From Burkholderiales bacterium (GTDB lineage: Bacteria > Pseudomonadota > Gammaproteobacteria > Burkholderiales > Burkholderiaceae_C), in assembly GCA_018969975.1 (NCBI GenBank), contig JAGWXI010000001.1:22918-86917 (forward strand): a stretch of 64,000 nucleotides of DNA, given 5' to 3'. Shown in pieces: positions 21,248-59,763 of the stretch (position 1 is its first letter; each line of letters opens with the position of its first letter). The translations under genes were made by a program, and so were the position numbers. Under the pieces are notes generated by a model that saw only the letters and a list, made by a program, of their open reading frames with translations, was not told the DNA's origin and did not search any database.

Positions 21248-21676
21248 ATGGCAACTGCAAAAAAACCGGCCGCGAAAAAGAAGGCCCCTGCAAAGAAAGT
21301 GGCAGCTAAAAAGCCAGCCGCTAAAAAAGTAGCCGCTAAAAAGCCGGCAGCAAAGAAGGTCGCAGCAAAGAAGCCAGCAGCTAAAAAAGCTGCAGCCAAA
21401 AAGCCAGCGGCAAAAAAAGTAGCGGCTAAGAAAAAGCCTGCTGCCAAGAAAGTGGCAGCTAAAAAGCCAGCGGCAAAAAAAGTAGCAGCTAAGAAAAAGC
21501 CTGCTGCCAAGAAAGCTGCGAAAAAGCCTGCTGCCAAGAAAGCTGCACCTAAAAAGGCTGCAAAAAAACCTGCGCCCAAGAAAGCCGCGAAAGCACCTGC
21601 TGCTGCCGTCGCTCATGCGCAAACAACTTTAAATCCACAAGCTGCTTGGCCGTTTCCAACGGCAAGCAGGCCCTGA
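21248..21676 (+). CDS. Histone H1-like DNA-binding protein (Lys/Ala-rich)
   Basis: The 142-residue protein is made almost wholly of AAKKPAAKKV-type repeats, followed by a short neutral tail (QTTLNPQAAWPFPTASRP). This is the composition of bacterial histone H1-like and AlgP-type proteins, which bind DNA without sequence preference through Lys-rich, unstructured chains. A TAGGAG ribosome site precedes the ATG. The DNA contains a 63-bp direct repeat, so copy number may vary between strains. The overlapping minus-strand ORFs (rich in Phe, Ala, Gly) are shadows of this skewed composition. A terminator follows. Confidence 0.9.
   Translation: MATAKKPAAKKKAPAKKVAAKKPAAKKVAAKKPAAKKVAAKKPAAKKAAAKKPAAKKVAAKKKPAAKKVAAKKPAAKKVAAKKKPAAKKAAKKPAAKKAAPKKAAKKPAPKKAAKAPAAAVAHAQTTLNPQAAWPFPTASRP
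21401..21523 (+). repeat. 63-bp direct repeat inside the histone-like gene
   Basis: A unit starting AAGCCAGCGGCAAAAAAAGT at 21401 recurs at 21464 with a few substitutions over about 60 bases; a shorter part (AAGCCTGCTGCCAAGAAAGC) appears once more downstream. The period is 21 codons and preserves frame. Confidence 0.75.
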
Positions 21677-55786: not shown

Positions 55787-56215
55787 TTAGAAAGAAAATT
55801 CCTTGAAGACGTCCGGCATGTCGCCTTGCATGGCTTGTGCTTCTTGCGTTTCGTAAGTTGCCTTGTCCCACAACTCAAAGTGGTTGCCCATGCCTAGCAA
55901 CATGGTGTCTTTTGAAATACCTGCGGCAGCGCGCAGTTCAGGGGAGATCAACACACGGCCTGTGCCGTCCATCTCCACATCCATCGCATTACCGAGCAAG
56001 ACCCGCTTCCACCATTGCGCGCTCATGGGGAGAGCCGCAACGCGTTCTCGAAATTTCTCCCACTCGGTGCGTGGGAACAGCATCAAACAGCCGTGGGGAT
56101 GACGCGTGATCGTGAGTTGCCCGCTCGCTGTGGCGCTCAAGACGTCGCGATGACGCGTAGGTACCGATAAACGGCCCTTGGCATCGAGACTCAGCGAAGA
56201 CGCACCTTGAAACAC
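55787..56215 (-). CDS. mraZ: Transcriptional regulator MraZ
   Basis: MraZ is an AbrB-fold ring-shaped DNA-binding protein that represses its own dcw operon. Two SpoVT/AbrB-like units: [23 protein letters not shown] and a second with [18 protein letters not shown]. The ORF track starts at 56248; a GTG at 56215, with AAGGA eight bases upstream, gives the usual start at FQGASSL and 142 residues. Four boxes phased at 10 bp lie upstream and overlap the promoter. Confidence 0.95.
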
Positions 56216-56269
56216 AGCAGATTTCCTTGGCAAATACACAATACGCAACCAGTAGTGAAAGTGAATCTA

Positions 56270-56461: not shown

Positions 56462-56490
56462 AAAAAAAACAGGCCAAAGGCCTGTTTTTT
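56462..56490. terminator. Bidirectional intrinsic terminator between dksA and mraZ
   Basis: AAAAAACAGGCC-AAA-GGCCTGTTTTTT: a perfect GC core with A-run and T-run, so it works on either strand. It lies about 20 bases after the dksA stop and ends that transcript before the dcw promoter. The rest of the 56216-56511 gap holds the mraZ control region and AT-rich DNA with no supported gene. Confidence 0.85.
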
Positions 56491-56511: not shown

Positions 56512-57555
56512 TCAATCTCCGAACATTTTTTGCTTGAGTTCGCGCCGCTCTTGTGCCTCTAGTGACAAGGTAGCGGTTGGACGGGCAAGCAAACGGGCGA
56601 CTCCGATAGGTTCGCCTGTTTCGTCACAGTAGCCGTAATCGCCACCGTCGATACGGTGAATGGATTGCTCGATTTTTTTCAGTAACTTGCGCTCACGGTC
56701 GCGGGTGCGCAACTCCAAGGCATGTTCTTCTTCAATAGTGGCGCGGTCTGCGGGGTCAGGGACCACCACCGTGTCTTCGCGCAAATGCTCAGTGGTTTCG
56801 CTGGCGTTACTCAAGACTTCGTTTTTGAGTTGTACCAATTTGAGACGGAAAAAAGCCATTTGTATATCGTTCATGTACTCACCGTCTGGCATGGCTATTA
56901 CCTCAGCGTCGGTGAGTTGGTCAGCCGATTTGGTTTTCCAGTTGTTGGCGAGTTTGGCGTCTTTTTGGGGTATCACGGGAATGATGGTCGATGCAGTCTG
57001 TTGCAAGATAGGCATGAAGCTGTTTTTCGCTGCGGTTGATGCCAAGACTTGCGTGGGTGGAGGGGGAACGAGTGCAGCCATTTTGGCGGCCCTGGAATTT
57101 TTCTTGTGCACCACGGGCGTGTAGCCCGGAATGATGGGTGTGACATGGACCACAGGAGCAGGTACAACCGCTTTAGCAGCATCCTTAGGTGTGGCGGATT
57201 TTTTGGGTGCCTCTACTTTTTTAGAGGGTACTTTTGCTTTAGGAGCGGTTACCTTTTTAACAGGCGCTTTTTTGGCGACAAGCTTCTTGGCTGGTGCTTT
57301 CTTTGCAACCACTTTTTTTGCCGGCACCTTCTTGGCCACGGGCTTTTTGGCTATCGGTTTTTTAGGAGTCACTTTTTTGGCAGTTGCCTTCTTGGGTACC
57401 GCTTTGGCAGCTATTTTTTTAGTCACAGGTTTCTTAGCAGGGGTTGGTTTTTTCACAAGCTTTTTAGCGGTTGTTTTAGGCTTTGCAGCAGGTTTGACAG
57501 CTTTTTTAGCTGCCGCTGATTTTGTTGGTTTTTTATGACGGGCTTGTGCATTCAC
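56512..57555 (-). CDS. dksA: DksA-type RNA polymerase regulator with histone H1-like N-terminal tail
   Basis: DksA binds the RNA polymerase secondary channel and with ppGpp adjusts rRNA and amino-acid promoters. The C-terminal 120 residues are DksA: a coiled-coil with DPADRATIEEEHALELRTRDRERKL, then GGDYGYCDETGEPIGVARL and RPTATLSLEAQERRE. Only one of the four zinc cysteines remains (C-T-S-A pattern), so this is the zinc-independent form. The first about 150 residues are KKP/AKK repeats like histone H1. The GTG at 57555, with AGGAG at seven bases, is preferred to the ORF-track start (347 residues). It lies downstream of a COG0523 GTPase. Confidence 0.93.
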   Translation of the reverse strand: MNAQARHKKPTKSAAAKKAVKPAAKPKTTAKKLVKKPTPAKKPVTKKIAAKAVPKKATAKKVTPKKPIAKKPVAKKVPAKKVVAKKAPAKKLVAKKAPVKKVTAPKAKVPSKKVEAPKKSATPKDAAKAVVPAPVVHVTPIIPGYTPVVHKKNSRAAKMAALVPPPPTQVLASTAAKNSFMPILQQTASTIIPVIPQKDAKLANNWKTKSADQLTDAEVIAMPDGEYMNDIQMAFFRLKLVQLKNEVLSNASETTEHLREDTVVVPDPADRATIEEEHALELRTRDRERKLLKKIEQSIHRIDGGDYGYCDETGEPIGVARLLARPTATLSLEAQERRELKQKMFGD

Positions 57556-57640
57556 GATTTGTCTCCTCGCCATTGCTTTAGTGCACGAATTTGTACCAAG
57601 AGAGGTCTGGCGCGCGGCGATTGTAGCCACATTCAAAAGG

Positions 57641-58708
57641 CTAAACCAGAGAATGCTCCAAGCCTTGCATCAAGATGTCTTTGGGTAAATCAATACCAAT
57701 AAACACCATCTTGCTTATTCGATCTTCACCTTGGGCCCATTCGGGTCCTAAATCACTTCCCATGAGTTGGTGAACGCCTTGGAAAATGACTTTACGCTCC
57801 GTCCCACGCATATTCAATACGCCCTTGTAGCGCAACATTTTGGGACCATAAATATTCACGACAGTGCCCAAAAAGTCTTCTAACTTAGCGGGATCGAAGG
57901 CGCGCTTAGATTTGAAGACAAAGCTTTTGACGTCATCGTCATGGTGGTGGTGATGGCCGTGGCCATGCTCACCATGACCGTGGTCGTGGCCATCATGCCC
58001 ATGCTTATGCGAAGGATGGTCGCAATGCTCACCGTCGTGGTGATGGTGCCCATCGTCGGCCAAGAAATCGGGATCGATGTCTAGCTTGGCGTTGAGGTTA
58101 AAACCACGCAAATCGAACACTTCTGCCAGGGATACTTCACCAAAATGCACCACCTTTTGCGGTGCCCGAGGGTTCATGTGTTTGACGCGGTGCTGCAGGG
58201 TGTCTAATTCCTCAGTAGAGACCAAGTCAGACTTGCTAATAAATATTTGGTCTGCAAAGCCTACTTGACGACGCGCTTCTTGCCGGTCGTTGAGTTGCTG
58301 GGCGGCGTGCTTGGCGTCCACCAAGGTGAGAATCGAGTCGAGCAAAAAGCTCTCTGCTATCTCGTCGTCCATGAAGAAGGTTTGCGCTACCGGGCCGGGG
58401 TCTGCCAAGCCCGTGGTTTCAATCACTACGCGTTCAAAATCTAACAGGCCTTTGCGTTTTTTAGCTGCCAAAAGTTGCAAAGTGGTGCGCAAGTCTTCTC
58501 GAATACTGCAGCACACGCAGCCGTTGTTCATCTGGATGATTTGTTCGTTGGTGTCAGAGACCAAGATTTCGTTATCGATATTTTCTTCACCGAACTCGTT
58601 CTCAATGACAGCAATTTTTTGGCCATGGGCCTCGGTCAAGACGCGTTTGAGTAAAGTGGTTTTGCCTGAACCCAAAAAGCCGGTCAGGATGGTGGCTGGA
58701 ATCAACAT
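57641..58708 (-). CDS. COG0523 (CobW/ZigA-type) GTPase with His-rich metal-binding loop
   Basis: A G3E-family GTPase, many of which act as zinc metallochaperones. TGFLGSGKTTLLKRVL is the P-loop; NNGCVCCSIREDL is the conserved CxCC metal motif; ETTGLADPGPVAQ follows. An insert near residues 220-255 (DGHHHHDGEHCDHPSHKHG) contains more than 15 histidines. 355 residues. It is 85 bases upstream of dksA on the same strand. The substrate (zinc, cobalt or other) is inferred from family and histidines, not shown. Confidence 0.93.
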   Translation of the reverse strand: MLIPATILTGFLGSGKTTLLKRVLTEAHGQKIAVIENEFGEENIDNEILVSDTNEQIIQMNNGCVCCSIREDLRTTLQLLAAKKRKGLLDFERVVIETTGLADPGPVAQTFFMDDEIAESFLLDSILTLVDAKHAAQQLNDRQEARRQVGFADQIFISKSDLVSTEELDTLQHRVKHMNPRAPQKVVHFGEVSLAEVFDLRGFNLNAKLDIDPDFLADDGHHHHDGEHCDHPSHKHGHDGHDHGHGEHGHGHHHHHDDDVKSFVFKSKRAFDPAKLEDFLGTVVNIYGPKMLRYKGVLNMRGTERKVIFQGVHQLMGSDLGPEWAQGEDRISKMVFIGIDLPKDILMQGLEHSLV

Positions 58709-58800: not shown

Positions 58801-59763
58801 TCACTTTTTCCGTGCACGCGGATGCGCTGCGTCATAGGCCTTGGCTAAATGTTGAAAATCCAAGCGCGTATAGACCTGTGTTGTACTGATGTTGGCATGC
58901 CCGAGCAGCTCTTGTACAGCACGCAAATCACTGCTGGACTGCAAAATATGGCTGGCAAATGAATGGCGCAACATATGCGGATGAACTGGAGTGGCAAGCC
59001 CTGCTTTCAAACTGCGCTGCCTCAAACGCTGCCAAATGCCTTGGGCGGTCAAACGGGTTGCGTACCTGCCTATGAAGAGGGCATTCTGAGCTTCTGTGGA
59101 AACGCTTTGTTCGGTAGGTGCAAGACTTCTCTGGCACACCTTCAAGCCTTGATCGCGAACCGCCAACCAAGCATTTACAGCCGCTAAGGCTTTGCTTCCG
59201 ATTGGAACACTGCGCCTTTTGCTGCCTTTACCAAATACATGGGCTTGGCCACTTTCTAAATCTAGCCAACCCTTTGCCACATTACTAGCTTGCACGTCTA
59301 GCCCCACCAATTCACCGACACGCAGTCCACAGCCGTAGAGCAATTCCACCATGGCTGCATCGCGGCATTCCAACCAAGGATCGGTTACCTCGGGCGAGGC
59401 AGAGAACTCTGCCAATTGCATGGCGTCATCCACACTCAATGCTTTGGGTAATGGCTTGGGTGCTTTGGGGGCCCGCACGCCTTGCACCGGGTTACTTTGC
59501 ACCACGCCCTCTCGTCCTAGCCAGGTATAGAAACCTCGCCAACCAGACAATATGAGGGCAATACCGCGGCCACTGCGTCCACCACTGTGCATCTGCGAAA
59601 CCCAGCGGCGAATATGGCTGGCTTGCACAGCCTCCAAAGCAAGCCCCGCATCTTTGGCATAGTCACTGAGTTTTTGTAAATCCAGGCTGTAGAGCACATG
59701 GGTGCGCTCTGCGAGGCGTTTCTCATAACGCACATGGTCAAGGTAGCGGGCAACCCAGTCCAT
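58801..59763 (-). CDS. xerC: Tyrosine recombinase XerC
   Basis: XerC resolves chromosome dimers at dif together with XerD. The N-terminal SAM-like domain (MDWVARYLDHVRYEKRLAERT) is followed by the catalytic domain: ELLYGCGLRVGELVGLD with the first Arg, HMLRHSFASHILQSS with His-x-x-Arg, GHANISTTQVYTRLDF with the His and nucleophile Tyr. 320 residues. The neighbours dapF and DUF484 are the classic XerC companions. XerD and a dif site are not in the window. Confidence 0.95.
   Translation of the reverse strand: MDWVARYLDHVRYEKRLAERTHVLYSLDLQKLSDYAKDAGLALEAVQASHIRRWVSQMHSGGRSGRGIALILSGWRGFYTWLGREGVVQSNPVQGVRAPKAPKPLPKALSVDDAMQLAEFSASPEVTDPWLECRDAAMVELLYGCGLRVGELVGLDVQASNVAKGWLDLESGQAHVFGKGSKRRSVPIGSKALAAVNAWLAVRDQGLKVCQRSLAPTEQSVSTEAQNALFIGRYATRLTAQGIWQRLRQRSLKAGLATPVHPHMLRHSFASHILQSSSDLRAVQELLGHANISTTQVYTRLDFQHLAKAYDAAHPRARKK

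Follow-up and report, generated by a model that had tools for sequence, protein, structure and literature searches.

A housekeeping DksA with a disordered histone H1-like tail and its possible tethering to DNA in a Burkholderiales bacterium

DksA couples starvation signals to RNA polymerase, and textbooks describe it as a factor that controls transcription by way of the polymerase channel and makes no contact with DNA. In the Burkholderiales bacterium studied here a stretch of 64,000 nucleotides (the window) encodes a DksA that is preceded by a long lysine-rich tail and lies beside the gene of a histidine-rich GTPase. This arrangement raises the question of what such a tail does on a factor of this kind, and whether the two neighbouring genes serve a common response to zinc limitation.

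Identity of the window dksA and its DksA fold

The gene (56512..57555, minus strand; 347 residues) was assigned to dksA by profile search, with 141.8 bits for TIGR02420 against a cut-off of 115.5 and additional matches to PF21157 and PF01258, and its product is matched by Escherichia coli DksA (1TJL) and Pseudomonas aeruginosa DksA2 (4IJJ) at 8.6e-31 and 6.2e-28, respectively. Translation starts from the GTG at 57555, preceded by the strong Shine-Dalgarno sequence GAGGAGA (57562..57568, minus strand) that is kept across the family; this type of start recurs throughout the family, whose proteins begin with V-K/N-A or similar, and it was preferred to an upstream TTG, which would give 374 residues and was rejected. 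The first-pass annotation had reckoned that the tail might fall to a different start; the start did prove to be different and the protein shorter, yet a tail of 197 residues remains. On the 3' side of the gene a likely intrinsic terminator, CAGGCC-TTT-GGCCTG-T8 (56462..56484, minus strand), was read from the sequence and is absent from the output of a scan.

The coiled coil, globular domain, and C-terminal helix occupy 56512..56871 (minus strand). Alignment confirmed the initial reading of the zinc-finger positions as C-T-S-A (C310, T313, S331, A334), and the CxxC-17-CxxC pattern of a C4 zinc finger is not found in the protein. The same four residues were present in 31 of 31 DksAs of family f1 examined first and in all 80 close relatives (Variovorax, Limnohabitans, Rhodoferax, Acidovorax, and kin), the exceptions in the window's own genus being two proteins with C-T-T-A and one fragment with C-T-S-N; C-T-S-A is the norm of the family sample and not the mark of a Zur-induced paralogue. 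DksA fold and function without the full C4 zinc finger are also found in P. aeruginosa DksA2 and Rhodobacter sphaeroides RSP2654 (PMC9239242); however, the 4IJJ chain of DksA2 carries no basic tail, and in P. aeruginosa DksA2 exists as an additional, zinc-sparing copy, in contrast to the window DksA, the only one of its genome. Since it is the sole DksA/TraR-type match in the assembly, which is 89% complete and in which a second, four-Cys dksA was sought and not found, the window gene is best read as the housekeeping, zinc-independent dksA within the limits of that completeness, which bears out the earlier suggestion that it may be the main DksA. The closed genome of a relative (G279) has another match to TIGR02420, weaker than the first, and short extra DksA/TraR-type proteins occur in several members of the window's genus.

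With E. coli DksA the window protein shares the fold, the DxxDxA tip of the coiled coil, and most residues of the ppGpp site, and differs from it in the C4 zinc finger and the short N-terminus of the E. coli protein. In E. coli numbering, D71, D74, and A76 of the tip as well as R91, K94, L95, K98, R125, and R129 are invariant in 150 of 150 relatives, while among the ppGpp-site positions K139 is replaced by Q and N68 by V (positions assigned to ppGpp site 2 in E. coli DksA). Position 139 is Q in all 150 C-T-S-A DksAs of the family versus K in all 41 four-Cys DksAs, and because of this replacement the ppGpp response of the family DksA may be altered relative to that of E. coli. Loss of ppGpp synthesis was rejected as the reason for the tail, since RelA/SpoT is present in the organism's own genome and in all 28 genomes checked.

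The basic tail, its spread and the adjoining motif

The disordered tail covers residues 1-197 (56965..57555, minus strand), that is, the part of the protein up to the conserved KDAKLANNW, and includes 49 Lys, one Asp, and one Glu, with a net charge of +49 and the densest K/A/P block in residues 1-128. Shuffles that keep the composition of the tail give 4.0 copies of the (x)KK(x) pattern against 15 in the real sequence, a count that none of 5000 shuffles reached. It had been estimated at first that about 150 residues precede the DksA fold; the tail is real, but the figure was somewhat low, as 228 residues stand before the first core helix, some 128 of them in the K/A/P block. Residues 30-203 of the TTG version scored 38.7 bits, below the cut-off of 80, with NF038053, a histone H1-like family of Burkholderiales, and the tail scored 29 bits with PF07382 (HC2), below the cut-off of 40. 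The tail resembles NF038053 in composition only, and its description as histone-like is supported in that sense. AlphaFold2 leaves the tail unstructured at low pLDDT, in a model that is weak overall (mean pLDDT 57). Between close relatives the dN/dS of the tail was mostly 0.07-0.28, apart from one pair at 0.35 and one low-divergence pair at 0.79, and that of the core was 0.02-0.08; judged by these ratios, the tail is protein-coding and under purifying selection, constrained less than the core. The only other H1-like match in the genome is a free-standing protein of 142 residues without another domain (21248..21676, plus strand; beginning MATAKKPAAKKK), which exceeds the NF038053 cut-off, has the same composition as the DksA tail, and is encoded just 3' of a gene resembling that of a ribonucleotide reductase small subunit.

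The spread of the tail was estimated in 70 genomes of the family, which were sampled non-randomly (the 30 best-scoring and 40 picked down the list) and almost all represent different genera. The tail reaches at least 50 residues in 56 of these genomes and at least 100 in 33, where starts were assigned automatically and a few lengths will be wrong, and its net charge is at least +5 in 55. Across relatives it ranges from 0 to about 390 residues, with a highly variable sequence and with length and net charge increasing together; the charge drops to about +5 in many genera, and the most basic tails, of about +45 to +64, belong to the window's genus. At least a dozen of the 70 members have little or no tail, and some genera of the family lack it, either through loss or from the beginning. 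The fusion, regarded at first as unusual, is therefore the majority state, and the tail-less majority that would have lowered its interest was not seen. A description of a tailed DksA was sought in the searched literature and none was found; apparently, this is a known protein family in a new architecture, common yet undescribed in that literature.

Similar tails occur on zinc-type DksAs as well. In two streamlined genera of family f26, likewise betaproteobacterial, with genomes of 1.1-1.4 Mb, the dksA frames encode 205-280 residues versus about 141-190 in others, and the tailed proteins (L334, L341-L359) are four-Cys DksAs with long N-terminal K/A/P tails of net charge +19 to +58, retained across both whole genera. 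In the tree of the core a long, fully supported branch divides the four-Cys from the C-T-S-A groups, and the tailed f26 sequences cluster within the four-Cys side (94/92), a tree of few columns in which the argument rests on that deep split. Because these sequences sit across it, the f26 tails are read as a gain separate from that of the window's lineage, which makes at least two gains, and because a like tail was gained on a four-Cys DksA, the tail and zinc independence are unrelated traits. In another family (genome G010, f11; L186) a four-Cys DksA is accompanied by a second, C-T-S-A DksA with its own K/R/A/P-rich tail, and this tailed copy may be a third gain.

Between tail and fold a conserved linear motif of about 27 residues was identified (residues 154-180, 57016..57096, minus strand), which reads SRAAKMAALVPPPPTQVLASTAAKNSF in the window DksA and SSRLAQLTVPSMAQSVASTAAKASY/F in most relatives. 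A strict pattern finds it in 80 of 144 long-tailed sequences and overlooks variants such as DAAKATF among the remainder. Where the motif occurs ASxAAKxS is near-invariant, and conservation inside the pattern is partly built in by the selection of sequences that contain it, while the columns on either side (R 84%, T 84%, P 91%, and V 91%) are independent of that selection. Across 41 genomes the motif is confined to dksA, save one weak match at chance level; the idea that it is a domain of wider occurrence was rejected, since no other protein clearly carrying it was found there. The motif probably serves to dock a partner protein, which may be the polymerase itself.

DNA tethering and other roles of the tail

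The reading preferred here, held with moderate confidence, is a CarD-like architecture in which a single housekeeping DksA is tethered to DNA by its disordered H1-like tail. The DksA fold, as we infer from its residues, would insert into the secondary channel of RNA polymerase and answer ppGpp without a zinc finger, and the tail ahead of it would bind DNA sequence-nonspecifically, which is plausible by analogy. The tail would hold DksA close to the nucleoid and to DNA-bound polymerase, raising its local concentration, and might bridge polymerase to flanking DNA, with the partner docked on the motif between tail and fold.

Tethering is favoured because Myxococcus xanthus CarD, the nearest analogue, has an RNAP-binding domain fused to a DNA-binding tail of HMGA-like type (PMC4182748) and because the KPAA tail of P. 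aeruginosa AlgP binds DNA (PMC9239181). CarD is like the proposed DksA in the fusion of an RNAP-interacting domain to a disordered basic DNA-binding tail, and the title of Garcia-Heras 2009 in the references of PMC4182748 indicates that this tail is replaceable by an H1-like domain; however, its RNAP-binding domain is unrelated, its tail is C-terminal and of about 140 residues, and it acts together with ECF sigma factors. The P. aeruginosa proteins AlgP and PhaF possess a similar disordered, DNA-binding Lys/Pro/Ala repeat tail of variable length (PMC9239181) and differ in their N-terminal partner domains, which are not DksA, in the C-terminal position of the tail, and in their roles at polyphosphate or PHA granules. 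Also in favour of the reading are the single DksA copy, the invariant residues of the fold, the patterned charge of the tail and its spread in the family, purifying selection, the adjoining motif, the free-standing H1-like protein of the window, and the separate gain in f26. The variable length and sequence of the tail, its low charge in many genera, the tail-less members, and the Q at position 139 are counted against it.

A polycationic tail would have affinity for RNA, polyphosphate, or acidic proteins as well. In a less likely alternative the tail binds polyanions in general and has its main target in RNA or ribosomes, polyphosphate granules, or condensates rather than in DNA, which would place DksA at polyphosphate or nascent RNA in starvation. 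Its support comes from the AlgP KPAA tail, which works at polyphosphate granules (PMC9239181), from DksA control of E. coli polyphosphate accumulation as cited in the same paper, and from ppk1 in the organism's own genome. However, no ppk1 match was found in three of five genomes sampled from g258, a genus with tailed DksA, which makes polyphosphate an unlikely general target of the tail; RNA or other polyanions may be targets. More doubtful still is a functionless tail, a tolerated low-complexity expansion from repeat slippage, although the variable length with indels between close relatives and the existence of tail-less members would suit it: dN/dS lies far below 1 in nearly all pairs (the low-divergence pair at 0.79 excepted), and the xKKx patterning, the joint increase of length and charge, the conserved adjoining motif, the start conserved in relatives, and two separate gains kept across two whole genera all argue for a function. 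DNA tethering is thus retained as the preferred reading, and the frequency of tails in the family together with their separate origin elsewhere suggests that several bacteria tether DksA to DNA.

The neighbouring GTPase, zinc and the dksA promoter

The gene next to dksA (57641..58708, minus strand) encodes a YjiA-like COG0523 (G3E) GTPase, in which the cobW nucleotide-binding (PF02492, 185.5 bits) and CobW_C (PF07683, 77.2 bits) domains are over cut-off. The His-rich character noted at first reading was confirmed, together with a GCVCC (CxCC) motif and a loop of 42 residues with 19 His (57932-58057, minus strand). Its best model is PRK11537/YjiA, at 287 bits below the model's cut-off of 361, while ZigA (NF038288) gave 168.9 bits against 600. 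The gene ends at 57641, 85 bases 5' of the dksA start, and the two genes stand side by side in 66 of the 70 relatives sampled, the exceptions being partly contig ends; their adjacency extends to other families, in which DksA has no tail, and so predates the tail. The pair is flanked by xerC-like (58801-59763, minus strand) and mraZ-like (55787-56248, minus strand) genes, which are conserved in many relatives and connect the division cluster to dksA.

In the interval that separates dksA from the GTPase gene lies a promoter-like TACAAT (57625-57620) with a GC-rich discriminator, CGCCGCGCGCC (57609..57625, minus strand). A consensus promoter scan found nothing at the locus, and the element was revealed by comparison across relatives: TACAATC and the discriminator, first seen in the alignment by eye, are highly conserved, and the -10-like element with a GC-rich stretch stands 5' of dksA in 90 of 117 relatives versus 0.84 in shuffles, which makes it very likely that dksA is driven by its own promoter. 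GC-rich discriminators are of the type repressed by DksA/ppGpp in E. coli, which suggests dksA as a candidate for autoregulation under stringent control.

A search of the Fur family for a zur gene found none in the genome, which has one Fur-family gene, Fur-like, as in most of the genus, with a second in a few relatives; among 77 relatives no enrichment of a Zur-like palindrome was seen 5' of the GTPase gene, in agreement with the initial failure to see a Zur box. A Zur-induced, zinc-sparing DksA2 paralogue was rejected on the same absence of zur gene and Zur box and on the single dksA copy. The zinc-limitation pair proposed in the first-pass annotation, despite the conserved adjacency and the Zur-linked COG0523 GTPases and Cys-less DksA paralogues of other bacteria (PMC2770081), is highly improbable against the lack of Zur, Zur box, and C4 paralogue, the separate promoter-like element of dksA, and a GTPase nearer to YjiA than to ZigA.

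In a wider and tentative view, given somewhat less than even chances, DksA became DNA-tethered at least twice independently in Betaproteobacteria, zinc-binding or not, by acquiring a disordered H1-like tail, with the docking motif joining tail and fold in the Comamonadaceae-type lineage. If this is true, the stringent response would depend in part on DksA being retained on DNA in a chromatin-like manner. The conserved motif SRLAQLTVPSMAQSVASTAAKASY offers a possible route to the partner protein of the tailed DksA. If the tail binds DNA in this large, environmentally common family and in streamlined lineages, models of the stringent response built on E. coli would not be simply transferable to them.
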